Shown here: positions 1,648-64,000 of the stretch, one piece after another
Position numbering within the stretch: position 1 is the stretch's first letter
How the letters are laid out: every line of letters begins with the position of its first letter
Source: Halorussus ruber
GTDB lineage: Archaea > Halobacteriota > Halobacteria > Halobacteriales > Haladaptataceae
Reading direction: 5' to 3'
NCBI RefSeq assembly: GCF_004765785.1
Contig: NZ_SBIT01000001.1
Span: 434,001-498,000 of the forward strand
Length of the DNA stretch: 64,000 nucleotides
Notes under the pieces: generated by a model
Database searches by the model: none
What the model was told of the DNA's origin: nothing
Seen by the model: the letters and a program-made list of their open reading frames with translations, nothing else
Position numbers and translations under genes: made by a program

Positions 1648-1698
1648 CGGAAGACAAACTGCGTCTTCCGAGGTCACCCTCGCTCCGCTCGCGTGACC
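1648..1698 (-). repeat. Fragment of dispersed hairpin repeat (two stem-loops)
   Basis: Bases 1648-1670 form an 8-bp stem (cggaagac / gtcttccg) with a 7-nt loop. The next hairpin has ggtcac / gtgacc arms around a 15-nt loop. The same pair of hairpins, in the same order, recurs at 63916-63960 in the opposite orientation, and the first hairpin recurs at 18127, 18228 and 18265. Confidence 0.75.
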
Positions 1699-17748: not shown

Positions 17749-18543
17749 ACCCCTACGGTTCTTCGCAGGATATTAAATGCTTGACCTTCCGATTTCGTGA
17801 TGAGACCTCCGGAGATTTTGGTCGGCGAATCGTGAAGGAAATTTAATTGTTTTCCTAATATGTGTATTTGATTGTTTAGGAAATGTCTGGGTATGTCTCG
17901 CAGTCGAACTCCCGGCAGATGGTTCTCGGACCACGTTTCAACTCGGAGGAAGGATGGTTCGATGTGACGCCGAGCGACAACGGAGGCCGTGGTGGTGTCT
18001 TCTGAAGCCCCGCCAGCTCTATCTCGGCGTGATTCGAACGCGAACAGTAGAGTTGGAGTGATGATGTCTTCTTGAAGCCCCCGCCCGCTCGCGGTCGCTG
18101 GCCGACATATCCGCTCCTCTCCGCACCGGAAGACAACCCGCGTCTTCCGAGCCTCGCCTCACTCCGTTCGGTGAGACACCGCCCGTCGCGGATAGGGGCC
18201 GCCCAGCGACCAAGCCCTTCGGGCGCTGGGAGACGAACCGCGTCTCCCAAGGTCACGTTCGCACCGGAAGACAATCCGCGTCTTCCGAGCCGTCACCTCA
18301 CTTCGTTCGGTGAGACTCCGCTCACGTGACCGCGACCGGGCGGCCCCTTCAGCCCCCCGTCGGTTGTTTCACCGAGCGCATCCCGGCGGTTGGTCGGCCG
18401 GGCGCGTCCTGTCGGAAGGTCCACCGAGCGCGACCGCCTCAGACCGGACGCGCCGCGTCGGTCTCCGACGCGGCGCGTCCGTCTGCCATCTGACACCATC
18501 TTCCTCCCGAAACCTAAGTGGAGTCCCGTCGTATCGGAGTTTC
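17749..18543. other. Long gene-free stretch holding repeat copy A
   Basis: Bases 17825-17885 form an A+T-rich island (aaggaaatttaattg, gtttaggaaatg). Bases 17999-18440 are a large minus-strand copy of the dispersed repeat. Several open frames run through it, but their peptides are low-complexity and track the repeat, so I do not call genes. The promoter of the serine hydrolase should lie within 18490-18543. Confidence 0.6.
17999..18440 (-). repeat. Dispersed modular repeat, copy A (longest)
   Basis: Read on the minus strand: tandem arms near 18375-18440 (gcgcccggccgaccaaccg), the box ctgaaggggccgcc (about 18339-18352), hairpins with ggtcac-type and ggaagac-type arms at 18265-18287, 18228-18248 and 18127-18149, and the end box gggggcttcaagaa (18069-18082). 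A second partial end box (ggggcttcagaag) lies at 17999-18012. Confidence 0.75.
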
Positions 18544-20625
18544 ATGCGTCAGAGAACCCGTTTACTGACAATTACGTTCGTCTTTCTCCTCGTCGCCGCG
18601 CAGGCCGCGCCCGCGCTGGCGGTCGCCGCGCTGGACGGCCAGAACGCCCAAGCGCAGGAGACCGACGCGCAGGAGCGCGGAGTCGATTCCCGCGAGGAGG
18701 TCGAGGCCTTCGTTGACACCGCGATGGCCGAGGACCTGAACGAACACCGCGTCTCGGGCGCGACCGTCTCGGTCGTCAAGGACGGCGAACTCCTCTTCGC
18801 GGAGGGGTACGGCTACGCAGACCGACGGAACCGGACCCCGGTCGCGGCGAACCGGACCATGTTCCGCATCGGGTCGGTCTCGAAGCTCTTCGCGTGGACC
18901 GCGGCGATGCAACAGGTCGAGCGCGGCCGCATCGACCCCAACGCCAGCGTGAACCGGTATCTCGACGACGTTCACGTCCCCGAGAGGTACGGCGAACCCG
19001 TCACGGTCGAACACCTCGCCACCCACACCGCCGGGTTCGAAGAGCAGTTGACCGGCGTCGGCGTCCGCTCGCCCGAGGACGTGCGACCGCTCGGCGAGAC
19101 CCTTCAGGAGGTGCCCGCTCGGGTCCGACCGCCGGGCGAGGTCACCTCCTACTCGAACTACGGCGCGGCGCTCGCGGGCCACATCGCCGCCAAGCAGGCT
19201 GGTACGCCCTTCAATCGCTACGCCGAGCGCGAACTCTTCGCGCCCCTCGGCATGACCCGCAGTACCTTCCGCCAGCCGGTTCCCGCCGACGTTCCCGGCC
19301 GCCTGTCGGAGGGCTACACCTACCAGAACGGGCGCTACGTCCGCGGCGAGTTCGAGACCATCGGCATCCCGCCCGCGGGGTCGATGAGCGCCACCTCGAC
19401 CGATATGGCGAACTTCATGATAGCGCACTTGCAGGGCGGGCAGTTCGAGGACTCCCGAATCCTCTCCGAGTCGGCCACCCGGCGGATGCACCGCCAGCAC
19501 TTCGCCAACCATCCCGCGCTCAACGGGATGGGCTTCGGCTTCTACGAGCAGAGCAAGAACGGCGTGCGCGTCGTCGGCCACGGCGGCGACACCCGACTGT
19601 TCCACTCGGGGCTGTGGCTGATGCCCGAGCGGGACCTCGGCGTGTTCGTCTCCTACAACTCGGTCGGCGGCGTGCAGGCCCGAGAGGAGTTCTACGACTC
19701 GTTCATGGACCGCTTCTTCCCGACCGAGGAGCGGCCCGTGACCGGCCCGGTCGCCCCGACCGTCGCCGACGGCGGCCAAGCGGAAGGGAGCGAGGCGAGC
19801 GCGAACGGCGGGGCCGAAATCGCCGACCCGGAACTCTCGGCGTTCACCGGGGCCTTCCGCACGACGCGAATCTCCTCCACCGACTTCACGAAGGTCGCCG
19901 CGCTCAACGGCGACTTCCGGGTCCGACCGGCCGAGAGCGCCGAGGGAGTCCTCGTGACCTCCCGGCCCGGGCAGGGCACCCAGCGCTGGATTCGGACCGG
20001 CCCGACCGTCTTCGAGGAGGTCGGCGGCGACGGCCGGATGGCCTTCCGCGTCGAGGACGGCCGGGCGAGCTACGTCTTCTTCGACGCCGCCGCGCCCCAG
20101 AGCTTCGAGCGCATCGGGTGGTGGGAGACCACTCAGATGCAAGCCGGACTGTTCGCCGCGGCGCTCCTGATTTTCGCCTCCGCGATTCTGGGGTGGCCCG
20201 CCGCGGCCCTCTGGCGTCGCTTCCGCGGCTGGCGACGCCGGAGGCGAGGGCGTGGAGGCAGGGGGAGGAGTCCCGTGAGCGCGGACGGCGATGACCGACT
20301 GGCCGCGAGCGACCGTCCCCGCGCGGCCCGCTGGCTGGCCGGGTTCACCGCACTACTCGGTATCGGCTTCGTCGTCGGATTCCTCGCGGTCCTCCTCACG
20401 GACCCTTTCAGCATCCTCGTTCTCCCGCCGAGCCTGCAAGCCCTGCTCTTCGTCCCGCCGGTCTTCGCGCTCGCCACGCTCGGCGTCGTCGCCGCCGCGG
20501 TCCTCGCGTGGACCGACCGCTACTGGGGTCCGGTTGGTCGTGTCCACTACTCGCTGGTCGCGGCGGCGCTCGTCGCCTTCCTCTGGCAACTCGCCTACTG
20601 GAACATGCTGACCGCGTGGCTCTGA
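18544..20625 (+). CDS. Secreted serine hydrolase (beta-lactamase/class C fold) with C-terminal membrane segments
   Basis: The 693-residue protein has a signal peptide (residues 1-28), a serine-hydrolase domain with SVSK (Ser111-Lys114), Tyr203-Ser-Asn205 and HGG (His346-Gly348) matching the SxxK, YxN and KTG-equivalent motifs of class C penicillin-binding folds. A beta-barrel-like middle domain (about 420-520) and four hydrophobic C-terminal segments (about 530-690) follow. The family covers esterases, D-aminopeptidases and PBP-like proteins. Archaea lack murein, so an esterase or peptidase role at the cell surface is likelier. The start was set by the signal peptide. Confidence 0.85.
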   Translation: MRQRTRLLTITFVFLLVAAQAAPALAVAALDGQNAQAQETDAQERGVDSREEVEAFVDTAMAEDLNEHRVSGATVSVVKDGELLFAEGYGYADRRNRTPVAANRTMFRIGSVSKLFAWTAAMQQVERGRIDPNASVNRYLDDVHVPERYGEPVTVEHLATHTAGFEEQLTGVGVRSPEDVRPLGETLQEVPARVRPPGEVTSYSNYGAALAGHIAAKQAGTPFNRYAERELFAPLGMTRSTFRQPVPADVPGRLSEGYTYQNGRYVRGEFETIGIPPAGSMSATSTDMANFMIAHLQGGQFEDSRILSESATRRMHRQHFANHPALNGMGFGFYEQSKNGVRVVGHGGDTRLFHSGLWLMPERDLGVFVSYNSVGGVQAREEFYDSFMDRFFPTEERPVTGPVAPTVADGGQAEGSEASANGGAEIADPELSAFTGAFRTTRISSTDFTKVAALNGDFRVRPAESAEGVLVTSRPGQGTQRWIRTGPTVFEEVGGDGRMAFRVEDGRASYVFFDAAAPQSFERIGWWETTQMQAGLFAAALLIFASAILGWPAAALWRRFRGWRRRRRGRGGRGRSPVSADGDDRLAASDRPRAARWLAGFTALLGIGFVVGFLAVLLTDPFSILVLPPSLQALLFVPPVFALATLGVVAAAVLAWTDRYWGPVGRVHYSLVAAALVAFLWQLAYWNMLTAWL

Positions 20626-39228: not shown

Positions 39229-39275
39229 CCTCCCGGCCATGACGGGCGAGGATTCCCGCGTTGGGATATTGTGGT

Positions 39276-40499
39276 TTACGACGTGACGTGTTCTTGAGGT
39301 GCAACCGCACCAGTTTCCTTGTCAAACAGGTACGTCGATGGCTGTGCCAACCAGCCGTTACTCCTATCTCCCCCATCACAGGCGAGACTCGGAGATACTT
39401 TCTGTCGAATGTTCTCAGCACCGTTCACGTCTGCGTTTGCCACCGTCCCGCAGCTATCACACACGTACAATCCGCGTTCAATTCGGTTCGCATCACATTT
39501 CTGACCACAGTACGAACACGACTTCGACGTATCGCGCTCAGACACCTGCTCAACCTCGATACCTTCCATCTCTGCTTTGTACGTCAGCAGGTTGGTGAAG
39601 CGGTCGAACGCCCACGAATGCAGGTTGAGGTTGCCGTGCTTTCCCCAGTTTTTCGACTCGCCGTTCTCCTCGTCCTCACGGATACCGGAGAGGTCGCCCA
39701 CCACAATCGTCCCGACTCCCTCCTCCACGCATCGGTCAACGATGTGTTTGGAGAGCGTGTGGAAGTAGTGGGTGCGGCGAGCCGACTTTTTGTGATTTAG
39801 CCGCGTGGCCTGTTCGGAGTCCGAGTCGTCACACCGGGCGAGACGCTTGCTGAAGTAGTAGTCGTCCTGCTTCAGACAGTTGAGTGGATACAACTCGGCA
39901 TGGCCGTCTTCGTAGGCAAGGGCGGCGAAGTTGCTGATACCAAGGTCGATGCCCACGGTCTTCTCGCCGGGTGATTCTGACACTTCGATTTCAACTTTGC
40001 AGACGAAGTGCAGTTCCCATTCATCGCCCGTCCAGACGGCTCGAACCTGTTGGACGTTCTCCACGGTGGAGAGGTCAACGTCGGGTCTAGTTCGGTATTC
40101 ACAGAGGATGAAGTCCGACCAGTAGTTTTTGAGGTTCGAGCCTTTGGAGAGTCGGACGCGATTGTACTGGGTATCGAGTTTGAAACTCATCTGCTTGAAC
40201 GTGACTGTGCTTCGGGGATGTTCGTCGCCGTGTTTGCGGTAGCCGGGCGGGTTTGCGTTCGTGTCTCCGTTGCGTCGGTTGGCGTACCAGCCGGTGAACG
40301 CCTCAGCGAGTTCCTGAAGAACACGCTGACTTGACTGAGAATGGAGGTCATCGTAGCGTTCGTGGCTCTTGAGGTACGCGGTGAGTTCGTCGTGGTCTGG
40401 GATGTAGCCGATTTCGTCCCAGACTCGACTGATTGTCCACCGGCCGACGTTCCAGAGTTTCGAGGCTGAGAACCCGAGCGAATCCAGGTCGTCGGACAC
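39276..40499 (-). CDS. tnpB: TnpB, RNA-guided nuclease family
   Basis: The 407-residue protein has the RuvC-type first Asp in VGIDLGISN, the zinc ribbon CSYCGQKC ... CDSCG and the last catalytic Asp in NADVNGAENI. At the second acidic site it reads VVGDLSGIR, where many TnpBs have Glu before Asp-Leu. The called start is a GTG at 40499, but homologous-looking sequence continues upstream in frame (VTRTYTASIRNQPQ) back to an ATT at 40556, so the true start may be non-canonical or mutated. The associated guide RNA should overlap the 3' end of the gene and run to 39229. Confidence 0.85.
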   Translation of the reverse strand: MSDDLDSLGFSASKLWNVGRWTISRVWDEIGYIPDHDELTAYLKSHERYDDLHSQSSQRVLQELAEAFTGWYANRRNGDTNANPPGYRKHGDEHPRSTVTFKQMSFKLDTQYNRVRLSKGSNLKNYWSDFILCEYRTRPDVDLSTVENVQQVRAVWTGDEWELHFVCKVEIEVSESPGEKTVGIDLGISNFAALAYEDGHAELYPLNCLKQDDYYFSKRLARCDDSDSEQATRLNHKKSARRTHYFHTLSKHIVDRCVEEGVGTIVVGDLSGIREDEENGESKNWGKHGNLNLHSWAFDRFTNLLTYKAEMEGIEVEQVSERDTSKSCSYCGQKCDANRIERGLYVCDSCGTVANADVNGAENIRQKVSPSLACDGGDRSNGWLAQPSTYLFDKETGAVAPQEHVTS

Positions 40500-50304: not shown

Positions 50305-51225
50305 CTACCCCTGATTCCGGAGATAGTGAAACACGTAGGTCTGGGCGTAGCCAGCGTACTCGCCGCCGAACCGCTCCCGAATCGCCCGCGAGGTCTTGGC
50401 GTACGACCCCCTGTCGCAATCGGGGTAGTAGTCCGCGATGGCGGTCTGAATCCACGTGTCGAGCGGGACCGCCTCCAGATAGCCCAGCGAGAACAGCAGG
50501 ACGCAGTCGGCCACCTTGTCGCCGACGCCGACGAACGCTTGGGCGGCCTCGCGGGCCGCCTCGTAGTCGAGTCCGAGGACGTCGTCGGCCGTGGCCTCGC
50601 CCGAGGCGACCAACTCCGCCGAGCGCCGGACGTAGGGCGCGCGGTAGCCCAACCCTAACGCACGCAGTTCCTCCTCGGTCGCGCTGGCGAGGCGGTCGGG
50701 GGTCGGATAGGCGTGATAGCGTTCCCCGTCGAACTCGACTTCCGCGCCGAACTCCCGGGCGAGGGCGGTCTGCATCCCGTGGATTCGCCCGACCCGCATC
50801 TGGGCCGAGCAGATGAACGAAATCAGACAGGGGAAGAAGGGGTCGTCCACGATTCGAAGCCCGCGGTAGGCGTCGGTCGCCGACGCGAGGAGTTCGTCGT
50901 CTGGCAGCTCGGCGAAGATGGCCGGGAGGTCGTCGTCGAGGCGCAGTCGCTCGGTGAGAAGCGGGTCGGCGTCGGTGGTGGCCTCCCACTCCAGCAGGCC
51001 GTCGCGCTGGCGGACGCGGACCACGTCGGGGTCTCCGCTGGCGCGTCCGCTTCCGGCGGACTCGCCGACGACGGTGTAGTACCACGCCGACCCGCCGTAG
51101 GGGTCGGCCTCCTCGTAGGCGCGGTCGTCGTCGCGCCGCCAGAGGAAGGTCTGGCCGCTTTCGAGCGTCGCCTGCAGGTCGAAACCTCCCGAGAGGTCGG
51201 CGACAGGTATCGAACCGGAGTGCAT
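50305..51225 (-). CDS. ogg: Ogg1-type 8-oxoguanine DNA glycosylase/lyase
   Basis: The 306-residue protein has an N-terminal antiparallel domain (DLQATLESGQTFLWRR) and the HhH-GPD motif GVGDKVADCVLLF with catalytic Lys237 and, 19 residues later, Asp256 in VPLDTWI. The spacing matches human OGG1. It removes oxidised guanine and nicks the abasic site. Transcribed with acyP. Confidence 0.92.
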   Translation of the reverse strand: MHSGSIPVADLSGGFDLQATLESGQTFLWRRDDDRAYEEADPYGGSAWYYTVVGESAGSGRASGDPDVVRVRQRDGLLEWEATTDADPLLTERLRLDDDLPAIFAELPDDELLASATDAYRGLRIVDDPFFPCLISFICSAQMRVGRIHGMQTALAREFGAEVEFDGERYHAYPTPDRLASATEEELRALGLGYRAPYVRRSAELVASGEATADDVLGLDYEAAREAAQAFVGVGDKVADCVLLFSLGYLEAVPLDTWIQTAIADYYPDCDRGSYAKTSRAIRERFGGEYAGYAQTYVFHYLRNQG

Positions 51226-51311
51226 CGCGGAACCCTCCGGCCCCCGAAGGTGGAAAGCTTTCGTTTTAGGGCTAAACTTGATACTGTTGGCGCTACAACT
51301 TCTACGTGGCT

Positions 51312-51767
51312 ATGAACTGCAGAGTTGTCGTGGAAGCCGCAGTCCCGGTCTACGACGTGGAGACCCCGGACGAGGCCGTTCGGATCGCCATCTCGAAGAC
51401 CGGCGAGTTGCTCAACCCGGACCTCAACTACGTCGAAATCAACATGGGCGAGCGGTCCTGCCCCCATTGCGGGGAGGAACTCGACCCCGCCTTCATCGCC
51501 GCCGACGAGAGTCTCGTCGCGCTGGAGTTGGAGATGACGGTGTTCAACGTCGAGCGCGAGGAACACGCCTCGCGCATCGCCCGGAAGGAGATCGGCCAGC
51601 GTCTCGAAAACATCCCGCTGACCGTCCTCGAAGTCGAAGTCATCGAGGAGGAAGACGAGGAGGACGAGACCGAGGCCGAGGAAGACGTCGAGGTCGAGTC
51701 CGAGAGCGAGCGCGACCGCGACGAAGACGACGAGGTCCTTCCCGAGTTCGAGGACCTCATCGACTGA
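51312..51767 (+). CDS. DUF555 (UPF0212) family protein
   Basis: The 151-residue archaeal protein (ATG at 51312; GTG at 51306 also possible) has CPHCGEE near residue 54, a zinc-knuckle half, and alternating strands (VVVEAAVPVYDV, LEMTVFNVE). The acidic C-terminal tail is disordered. Its TGA stop lies at the exact junction with the second IS605-type element (the element end reads tgacatccgctc), so the stop codon may be element-derived. Function unknown. Confidence 0.85.
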   Translation: MNCRVVVEAAVPVYDVETPDEAVRIAISKTGELLNPDLNYVEINMGERSCPHCGEELDPAFIAADESLVALELEMTVFNVEREEHASRIARKEIGQRLENIPLTVLEVEVIEEEDEEDETEAEEDVEVESESERDRDEDDEVLPEFEDLID

Positions 51768-51789
51768 CATCCGCTCAGGGCTGAAGCCG

Positions 51790-52565
51790 TGGGGTTCCCC
51801 ACTGGGGGTTGAGCCTACGGAAACAGAGAGGTTCGCAGGTTCGTCGTCGCGTGGGACGAGGACCTGCGTTTCGGGCCGTGCCAGTCCGACCCCCGCCACG
51901 ATGGCGCGGGAAATCTTGTGGAGGCGGTCGTCCACCTTCCGCGCTTCCGCGTCACCGATGCGCTCGACTACCTGCTTACCTTGCCGCGGTTTTGCCTTCC
52001 CGATAGACTTGCGGAGTTGCTTGTAGTGTTCGCGTATGCGACGCACTTCCTCACCGTAGAAGGTGGTTTTGCGGTCGGAGAGAAACGCTGTCGTGGCGAC
52101 CCACCGTGCGCCCATGTCGATAGCCAGTACGTCGGCGTACTCGTCTTGAACGGTCACAGACCGCTTGACGACAAGATCGACGTACCAGTCACCGTCTCGG
52201 CGCACGAGTTCGCTGTCCCGAATATCACCTTCGCGGACGAGCTGGTCGTCTTTTCGGGGAATGTGGGCCGGACACCAAGTCGAGTTGCCTCGTCCGCGCT
52301 CGGGGTCGTAAACGGGGACTCTGACCCACCACGACGAGAGAACAGTATCCTCGTCGTAGGCTACGTCGAACACGTCGTTGCGAAGCACGACAGGTTGCTC
52401 GGTGTCGGGATTTTGGTCTTTTTGTCGCTGTACTTTCGACGCCTGTTGTTTGGTCGCAGAGTAGAGGTCGGCGTCTCCGCCGTGAACCTCGGTCTGGAAC
52501 GCCTCATATTCACGGGCAAGCAGGTCGGCCTTCCTGTTGGTCAGCGAGTGGAGTTTGACCCGCAC
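51790..52565 (-). pseudogene. tnpB: TnpB, internally deleted
   Basis: From the GTG at 52565 the frame matches TnpB through the first RuvC Asp (VLAIDMGARWVATT) up to HKISRAIV (about 51905). The sequence then jumps to unrelated residues (AGVGLARPETQVLVPRDD) and to the element end. The catalytic Glu, the zinc ribbon and the last Asp are all missing, roughly 150 residues. The frame has no stop of its own before the element end. The product cannot be an active nuclease. Confidence 0.8.
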
Positions 52566-52591: not shown

Positions 52592-52987
52592 CTACTCACC
52601 TGCTTGGGCGTCGATGTACTCTTCGATGACCTCGATGGACACGTTGCCCGCGCTTGAGACGAAGTACGAGCGCGTCCACAGCGAGGGCAAGCCGACGTCG
52701 AACTCGTCGCGGAGGTGGCGCGAGGAGTAGCCTTTGACCTGTTGCACGATTTTGTTTGGGGCGAGCGTGGAGTCGCCCGTGATGAACAGGTGTACGTGGT
52801 CGGAGCGAATCGCCAACTCCAGTCTCTCTAAGCCGAGTTCGGCGGCTTTCTCCTCGATGAGTGCTTCGAGACGGTCACGTACGTCGCCTTCGAGTACCGA
52901 TTTGCGGTACTTCGGACACCAGATGAAGTGGTACTGGAGTTTGTGTATGTTGGTACGCTCCCGGTCGAACCCACGAGGTACCGTCAA
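52592..52987 (-). CDS. tnpA: TnpA, Y1-HUH transposase of IS200/IS605
   Basis: From the TTG at 52987 the protein has 131 residues; further TTG/GTG starts upstream (to 53035) are possible. It has the HUH motif in HVHLFI and the catalytic Tyr region in WTRSYFVSSAG. This enzyme cuts and joins single-stranded element ends. It looks intact. tnpB begins 26 bp downstream in the same direction. Confidence 0.88.
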   Translation of the reverse strand: MTVPRGFDRERTNIHKLQYHFIWCPKYRKSVLEGDVRDRLEALIEEKAAELGLERLELAIRSDHVHLFITGDSTLAPNKIVQQVKGYSSRHLRDEFDVGLPSLWTRSYFVSSAGNVSIEVIEEYIDAQAGE

Positions 52988-53140
52988 TATACACAAATTC
53001 CCACCTAAAGATGTTACGCAATTATCCACCCCCAACCGTGGCTATGAACGGGGACAGTTTCCTCGTTGTCGGCCGCATCCCACCCGTAAACGAGTGGGAT
53101 GTCGCCTCGCTACCGCTGTAACCAGTGACTCTGCCAGTCC

Positions 53141-63801: not shown

Positions 63802-64000
63802 CGAGCGCGCTCGGTGGAACAAACCACGGTCGAACGCTCAATTGACCAGCCGACAGGTCGCGCCTGATTGACCAACCGCCGTGGGTGGATGAAGGGGCCG
63901 CCCGGTCGCGGTCACGCGAACGAAGTGAGTGTGACCTTGGAAGACGCGGTTTGTCTTCCAGCGTTTACCGTGGTCGTCTGAGCAGGCCACTATTCGGCGT
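63802..64000 (+). repeat. Dispersed modular repeat, copy D (cut by window end)
   Basis: Tandem arms gcgctcggtggaacaaacca, tcgcgcctgattgaccaac (63808-63879), the box ggatgaaggggccgcc (63888-63903), hairpin ggtcac-15 nt-gtgacc (63910-63936) and hairpin tggaagac-gcggttt-gtcttcca (63938-63960). The end box is not reached inside the window. Confidence 0.75.

Follow-up and report, generated by a model that had tools for sequence, protein, structure and literature searches.

We have analyzed a window of 64,000 nucleotides from the genome of Halorussus ruber, in which a short hairpin, here called Y, occurs five times. All five hairpins lie where the preliminary description had placed them, and each has a 7-nt loop. 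Four are on the plus strand: GGAAGAC-AAACTGC-GTCTTCC at 1649–1669, with closing pair 1648/1670; GGAAGAC-AACCCGC-GTCTTCC at 18128–18148 and GGAAGAC-AATCCGC-GTCTTCC at 18266–18286; and GGGAGAC-GAACCGC-GTCTCCC at 18228–18248, closed by the pair T18227-A18249. In this last hairpin A-T is replaced by G-C on both arms, as had been claimed. The fifth is on the minus strand (GGAAGAC-AAACCGC-GTCTTCC, 63939–63959, with loop AAACCGC on that strand), in an element (L014) that continues beyond the end of the window; its T-A closing pair, at 63938–63960, had also been correctly described. The three central hairpins fall within a composite nested element at 18074–18350 (plus strand), where an outer stem GAAGCCCCCGCCCG.../...CGGGCGGCCCCTTC surrounds the modules X, Y and Z and two Y-W units that are described below. 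The fold of this element has a z score of −5.1 as DNA and −6.8 as RNA.

Several other features of the window can be noted. A separate long, GC-rich inverted repeat at 18442–18484 (GGACGCGCCGCGTCGG...CCGACGCGGCGCGTCC) lies ~60 bp upstream of a gene of the beta-lactamase family at 18544–20625 (PF00144). A Y1 (IS200-type) TnpA is found at 52592–53035 on the minus strand, adjoined by a frame at 50823–52565 (minus strand) that, judged from its sequence, begins with what looks like a TnpB-like stretch. A TnpB gene at 39276–40499 (minus strand) has OrfB_IS605 and Cas12f1-like TNB domains, and an Rfam sot0042 RNA at 39231–39400 overlaps the 3′ end of this gene (39231–40499, minus strand); it is likely the guide RNA of that TnpB.

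The window is too small to test the hairpins, a search allowing three mismatches giving 8 matches there against 5.4 expected, which carries little statistical weight. We therefore used the whole genome (4.32 Mb, 31 contigs). The pattern GGRAGAC-N7-GTCTYCC has 87 exact copies per strand, compared with 0 for the reversed control, and this settles the reality of the hairpins. The family in the Halorussus genome is thus larger than first noted, with ~100 copies. A related asymmetric pattern has matches in all 17 of the other genomes of the genus Halorussus, and in few genomes outside it. Haloarcula and a halobacterial MAG also carry the RANCCGC-type loop, there on other stems. Tandem arrays of Y units were seen in H. 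amylolyticus (L098, 726–984; three copies 119 bp apart) and in Haloarcula japonica (L224, 762–860; two copies 78 bp apart).

Covariation in the stem was studied using 97 copies listed from the H. ruber genome and 112 from its relatives, selected with only CRCY...AANCCGC...RAG fixed and the stem left free, in order to avoid circularity. Watson-Crick pairing was found at pair 0 in 97/97 copies (best shuffle 89), at pair 2 in 93/97 (90), at pair 3 in 89/97 (61) and at pair 4 in 96/97 (67). Changes on both sides occur at each of these four positions far above the shuffled and slid controls, with G-C, A-T, T-A and C-G all present at pair 2, and A-T, C-G and G-C at pair 3; the number of different stems with perfect pairing is 16 or more. 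Among 46 distinct Y sequences there are 56 cells changed on both sides, compared with 19 after shuffling and no more than 9 after sliding, a control that preserves the relatedness among copies; many copies descend from each other, so that these counts do not represent independent events. The preliminary description would have been refuted by a bigger alignment in which stem changes are not paired. The present alignment does not refute it, with about 7% of cells unpaired in the 46-sequence set.

The converse search was also performed, fixing CRCC and GAG[CG] while allowing any perfect 7-bp stem and any loop of 3–15 nt in intergenic DNA. This gave 39 hairpins. In 34 of them the loop is 7 nt long and either matches the RANCCGC type or differs from it by a single base; the other loops comprise one of 9 nt and four of 5 nt. 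Two control flanks gave no hairpins. Taken together, the tests with free stem and with free loop indicate conservation of the loop and flanks, together with a stem whose sequence is free provided that it is paired.

Next to Y, on its 3′ side, lies another hairpin, W, and the two together make up a double-hairpin unit (U) of the form ACC-Y-GAGC-W-GAC, of ~53 bp and mostly 50–58 bp in length. The preceding base is C in 71/71 cases and the right end is [ACG]GAC. The unit runs from ACC to GAC, and a terminal inverted repeat is not evident. These units occupy the loops of the bigger hairpins X and Z, which are often found without them: in 1.26 Mb there are nine X loops without an insert and seven with one. 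Of the Z loops, seven were found without and two with an insert. The empty X loop reads CTCTCCGCACC/GCCCG, and the filled X loops carry U at the point marked by the stroke. For empty Z loops, such as GTCACGTTCGCTTCGCTCACGTGAC, the window supplies a filled counterpart at 18252–18330. Loops that are otherwise alike are therefore observed with and without the unit, and in these the unit joins without duplication; in single-copy DNA, however, the flanks have diverged, so that the exact ends of insertions could not be set.

The X module has the form GGTCGCT[a-arm]ATAT[b-arm]...[b']ATAG..[a']AGCGACC, where the paired stems are specific to each copy and the internal-loop sequences ATAT and ATAG are conserved because they served as search anchors. 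In the window it spans 18093–18211 (plus strand), and carries in its apical loop a U unit of 53 bp, ACC-Y-GAGCC-W-AGAC, at 18125–18177 (plus strand). In 69 copies having 30 distinct a-arms, 749 of 828 pairs in the X stems are Watson-Crick, with 262 changes on both sides compared with 22–51 in slid controls, and the stems remain paired around inserts ranging from tens to more than 100 nt. Z is a hairpin bounded by GGTCAC and GTGACC. It lies 3′ of Y at 1672–1698 (plus strand; GGTCAC-cctcgctccgctcgc-GTGACC), adjoins the minus-strand Y at 63910–63936 (minus strand), and at 18251–18331 (plus strand) holds in its loop the second U unit, of 54 bp, at 18263–18316 (plus strand), which follows GTCACGTTCGC and precedes TCCGCTCACGTGAC. 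The spacing of 38 bp between 18228 and 18266 arises from this U unit in a Z loop adjoining Y, and three Y hairpins with exactly the same spacing were seen at G000:C6:205690-205786. Another double-hairpin unit, CGAAAATC-GGA-GATTTTCG TGATCA CGAAAGGCTTCGCCTTTCG AACGAC, lies inside W of some copies (L040 near 929, L075 near 992), and several families of this kind appear to exist. A k-mer estimate of the coverage of the mosaics was dropped, as it was dominated by codon bias.

The presence of the element is specific to particular lineages. At the 18127 site the flanking genes are conserved, and the intergenic stretch in seven syntenic relatives contains no such element. At the 1648 site the aligned flanks are separated by ~365 nt here and by 83–148 nt in three relatives. 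For a copy in H. amylolyticus (G011 C2:614823) no full-length element was found at matching sites in the relatives examined; at the matching site in G006 (L272) there is a short piece, TTCTTGAAAGCCCCCGCCCG, that resembles the 5′ end of the element and may be what is left of a copy or the product of an incomplete insertion. Almost all Y copies are intergenic. Based on gene calls made by a simple codon-usage script, 16/45 lie between convergent genes, which is an enrichment (P of about 0.001–0.008), and 9/45 between divergent genes, and their two orientations between co-directional genes are in the ratio 10:10. A viral source was rejected, as viral contigs gave no match to the element, and the only plasmid matches were in two Halorussus plasmids, to parts of the element.

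What maintains the pairing? The preliminary description held that the paired changes imply selection on the fold. That the fold is maintained is well supported by covariation above the controls; that selection is the cause is less certain, for template switching or hairpin exchange can also generate paired changes. Indeed the changes could be entirely mutational, resulting from template switching between the arms (quasi-palindrome correction) or gene conversion of whole hairpins, with no selection on the fold. One or two paired changes already distinguish copies whose right flanks are 94–100% identical (for example L014 from L064 and L049, and L011 from L044), so that a single event may alter the two arms together, and this is the main doubt attached to our interpretation. 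Arm chimeras of known subfamilies also occur, such as GGAGGAC/GTCCGCC, and the pairing is exclusively of Watson-Crick type, as expected from copying. In close copies the changes per site are about equal in rate for the loop (18/553) and the stem (30/1264), so that both processes may act. However, correction alone should allow the loops and junctions to drift, yet RANCCGC, CRCC and GAGC persist over the 16 or more perfect stems, and the X stems stay paired across their long inserts. This long-term conservation of loop and junctions argues against a mutational origin as the whole story, and as a complete explanation we consider it rather unlikely.

It had also been proposed that the hairpins have either an RNA or a cruciform-binding function, and a structured RNA, cis-regulatory or small, kept by selection on its fold would account for the conserved loops and junctions, the covarying stems and the multi-branch fold with its RNA z score, all of which are typical of RNA. 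If an RNA fold were under selection, G-U would be expected to be better tolerated than A-C on the functional strand. Yet the stems of Y, X and W together contain 19 G-T and 30 A-C mismatches in 2,203 pairs, a comparison that omits pairs 5–7, where the membership rule fixed the 5′ side and created a spurious A-C excess at the loop-closing pair. By contrast, tRNAs on the same contigs have 18 G-T and 0 A-C in 281 pairs, although the reliance of the tRNA finder on standard pairs biases this control toward G-T. With copies that are not independent, the contrast is a strong but not final argument against RNA. Searching Rfam with 17950–18500, at the gathering score and at E ≤ 1, gave no family matching the element; the weak matches (E ≤ 1) mainly involve the long hairpin at 18442–18484, which is a separate feature. 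Together with the equal orientations, these results do not support a function as RNA and narrow the earlier proposal to a constraint at the level of DNA. As the element is in addition missing from the matching sites of sister species, we regard a structured RNA as improbable. Transcription terminators or structures at the 3′ ends of mRNA would be consistent with the enrichment between convergent genes, but copies also lie between divergent genes, have no bias in orientation and do not recur at the matching site in relatives, making this explanation very improbable indeed.

Compensated stems with a constant loop point instead to a mobile DNA element that is recognized by its folded shape, and recognition of the hairpin at the DNA level during movement fits the data best. 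We consider it probable, if well short of certain, that Y forms one of the two halves of a small, non-autonomous unit of mobile DNA, which is recognized as a folded hairpin and spreads with a requirement for paired stems. The hairpins would most likely extrude from single-stranded or supercoiled DNA. Some recombinase or nuclease would then read the bases of the loop and junctions (RANCCGC, CRCC, GAGC and GAC) and demand a paired stem of any sequence, whereupon the unit would move; no enzyme with such a mobilizing role was found. Copies that are unpaired would fail to do so, and the stems would drift in sequence yet remain paired. Insertion of the unit in intergenic DNA, and also in X and Z loops, would generate the nested mosaics of ~300 bp. 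We infer that a protein recognizes the fold as DNA and that the paired stems are kept by selection for movement; correction of one arm from the other, or exchange of hairpins between copies, may contribute.

A narrower form of the mobile-unit explanation is that the unit is REPIN- or PATE-like, mobilized in trans by a Y1 transposase of the IS200/IS605 or TnpA-REP type. The two hairpins near the ends of the unit, the cleavage-like C at both borders, the seven Y1 matches in the H. ruber genome and the compensatory changes reported in REPINs (PMC3116915) are in keeping with this. But among the six full-length Y1 loci of that genome Y was never the end of an element (TnpB-only loci lay outside the screen). 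The ends of IS200/IS605 elements were accordingly rejected as the source of Y, since the hairpins around the Y1 loci differ from it, apart from one Y-like hairpin ~300 bp from the gene at L112. Moreover, a search with PF01797 found no Y1 match in five Halorussus genomes (G001, G002, G003, G010 and G011) that contain 17–33 pattern matches each, some of them due to chance given 1–4 per genome in the reversed control; the idea that copy number tracks the presence of Y1 was therefore also rejected. There is, in addition, no GTAG by the hairpin. We judge mobilization by Y1 to be unlikely. A broader extension of the mobile-unit reading is that the family represents a class of archaeal transposable element consisting only of structure-recognized DNA hairpins, mobilized by a non-Y1 enzyme and inserting preferentially where another extruded hairpin offers its loop, with nesting and growth of the elements as the result. 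This we advance tentatively, as possible but on balance doubtful.

The Y copies amount to a mutagenesis of DNA hairpins carried out by nature, with conserved loops and stems that are free but paired. Covariation among dispersed copies is in itself no proof of a functional RNA, and the combination of strand-symmetric mismatches with covarying stems offers a way to tell constraint at the level of DNA from that at the level of RNA. The Y-W family provides a testable route to a mobilizing enzyme in haloarchaea.

A literature search on repeat hairpins of Halorussus found no paper. Double-hairpin elements are reportedly present in the mitochondria of Allomyces, and we know of no sequence shared between Y-W and the organelle elements of Allomyces or Volvox. 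Nested palindromic repeats occur in Volvox organelles (PMC2670323); like Y-W, the organelle elements are hairpin units that have conserved loops and are nested by mutual insertion, but they reside in organelle DNA. In bacterial REPINs compensatory changes have already been described and are called common, and a hairpin intermediate has been proposed (PMC3116915); some TnpA-REP proteins read bases of the loop and require a perfect stem (PMC8266576). The REP/REPIN and RAYT systems share with Y the presence of many copies of a short extragenic palindrome, hairpins with compensatory changes, and mosaics (PMC3116915, PMC8266576). However, their flank is GTAG, whereas Y has CRCC on its 5′ side and GAGC on its 3′ side; a REPIN is an inverted doublet, whereas U consists of two different adjacent hairpins; and REP/REPIN sequences have a cognate Y1, where none was found for Y, whose host is archaeal. 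PATEs resemble U in having palindromes near their termini and in their terminal-only forms of ~52 bp; they have no terminal inverted repeats, and none is evident in U (PMC3119063). But their palindromes resemble ends of IS605 type, whereas Y is unlike the ends of the Y1 loci in H. ruber. The data thus do not support placing Y-W in either the REP/RAYT or the PATE group. Nested palindromes are likewise already known among haloarchaeal SMR-A and PATE elements. SMR-A of Haloquadratum is a short haloarchaeal element without a transposase gene that is described as inserting into palindromes of other haloarchaeal elements without target duplication, by an enigmatic mechanism (PMC3119063). It is ~110 bp long and homogeneous with prominent inverted terminal repeats, whereas U is ~53 bp with none evident and with variable stems. 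The location of U in the loops of X and Z corresponds to an SMR-A-like insertion into the palindromes of other elements.
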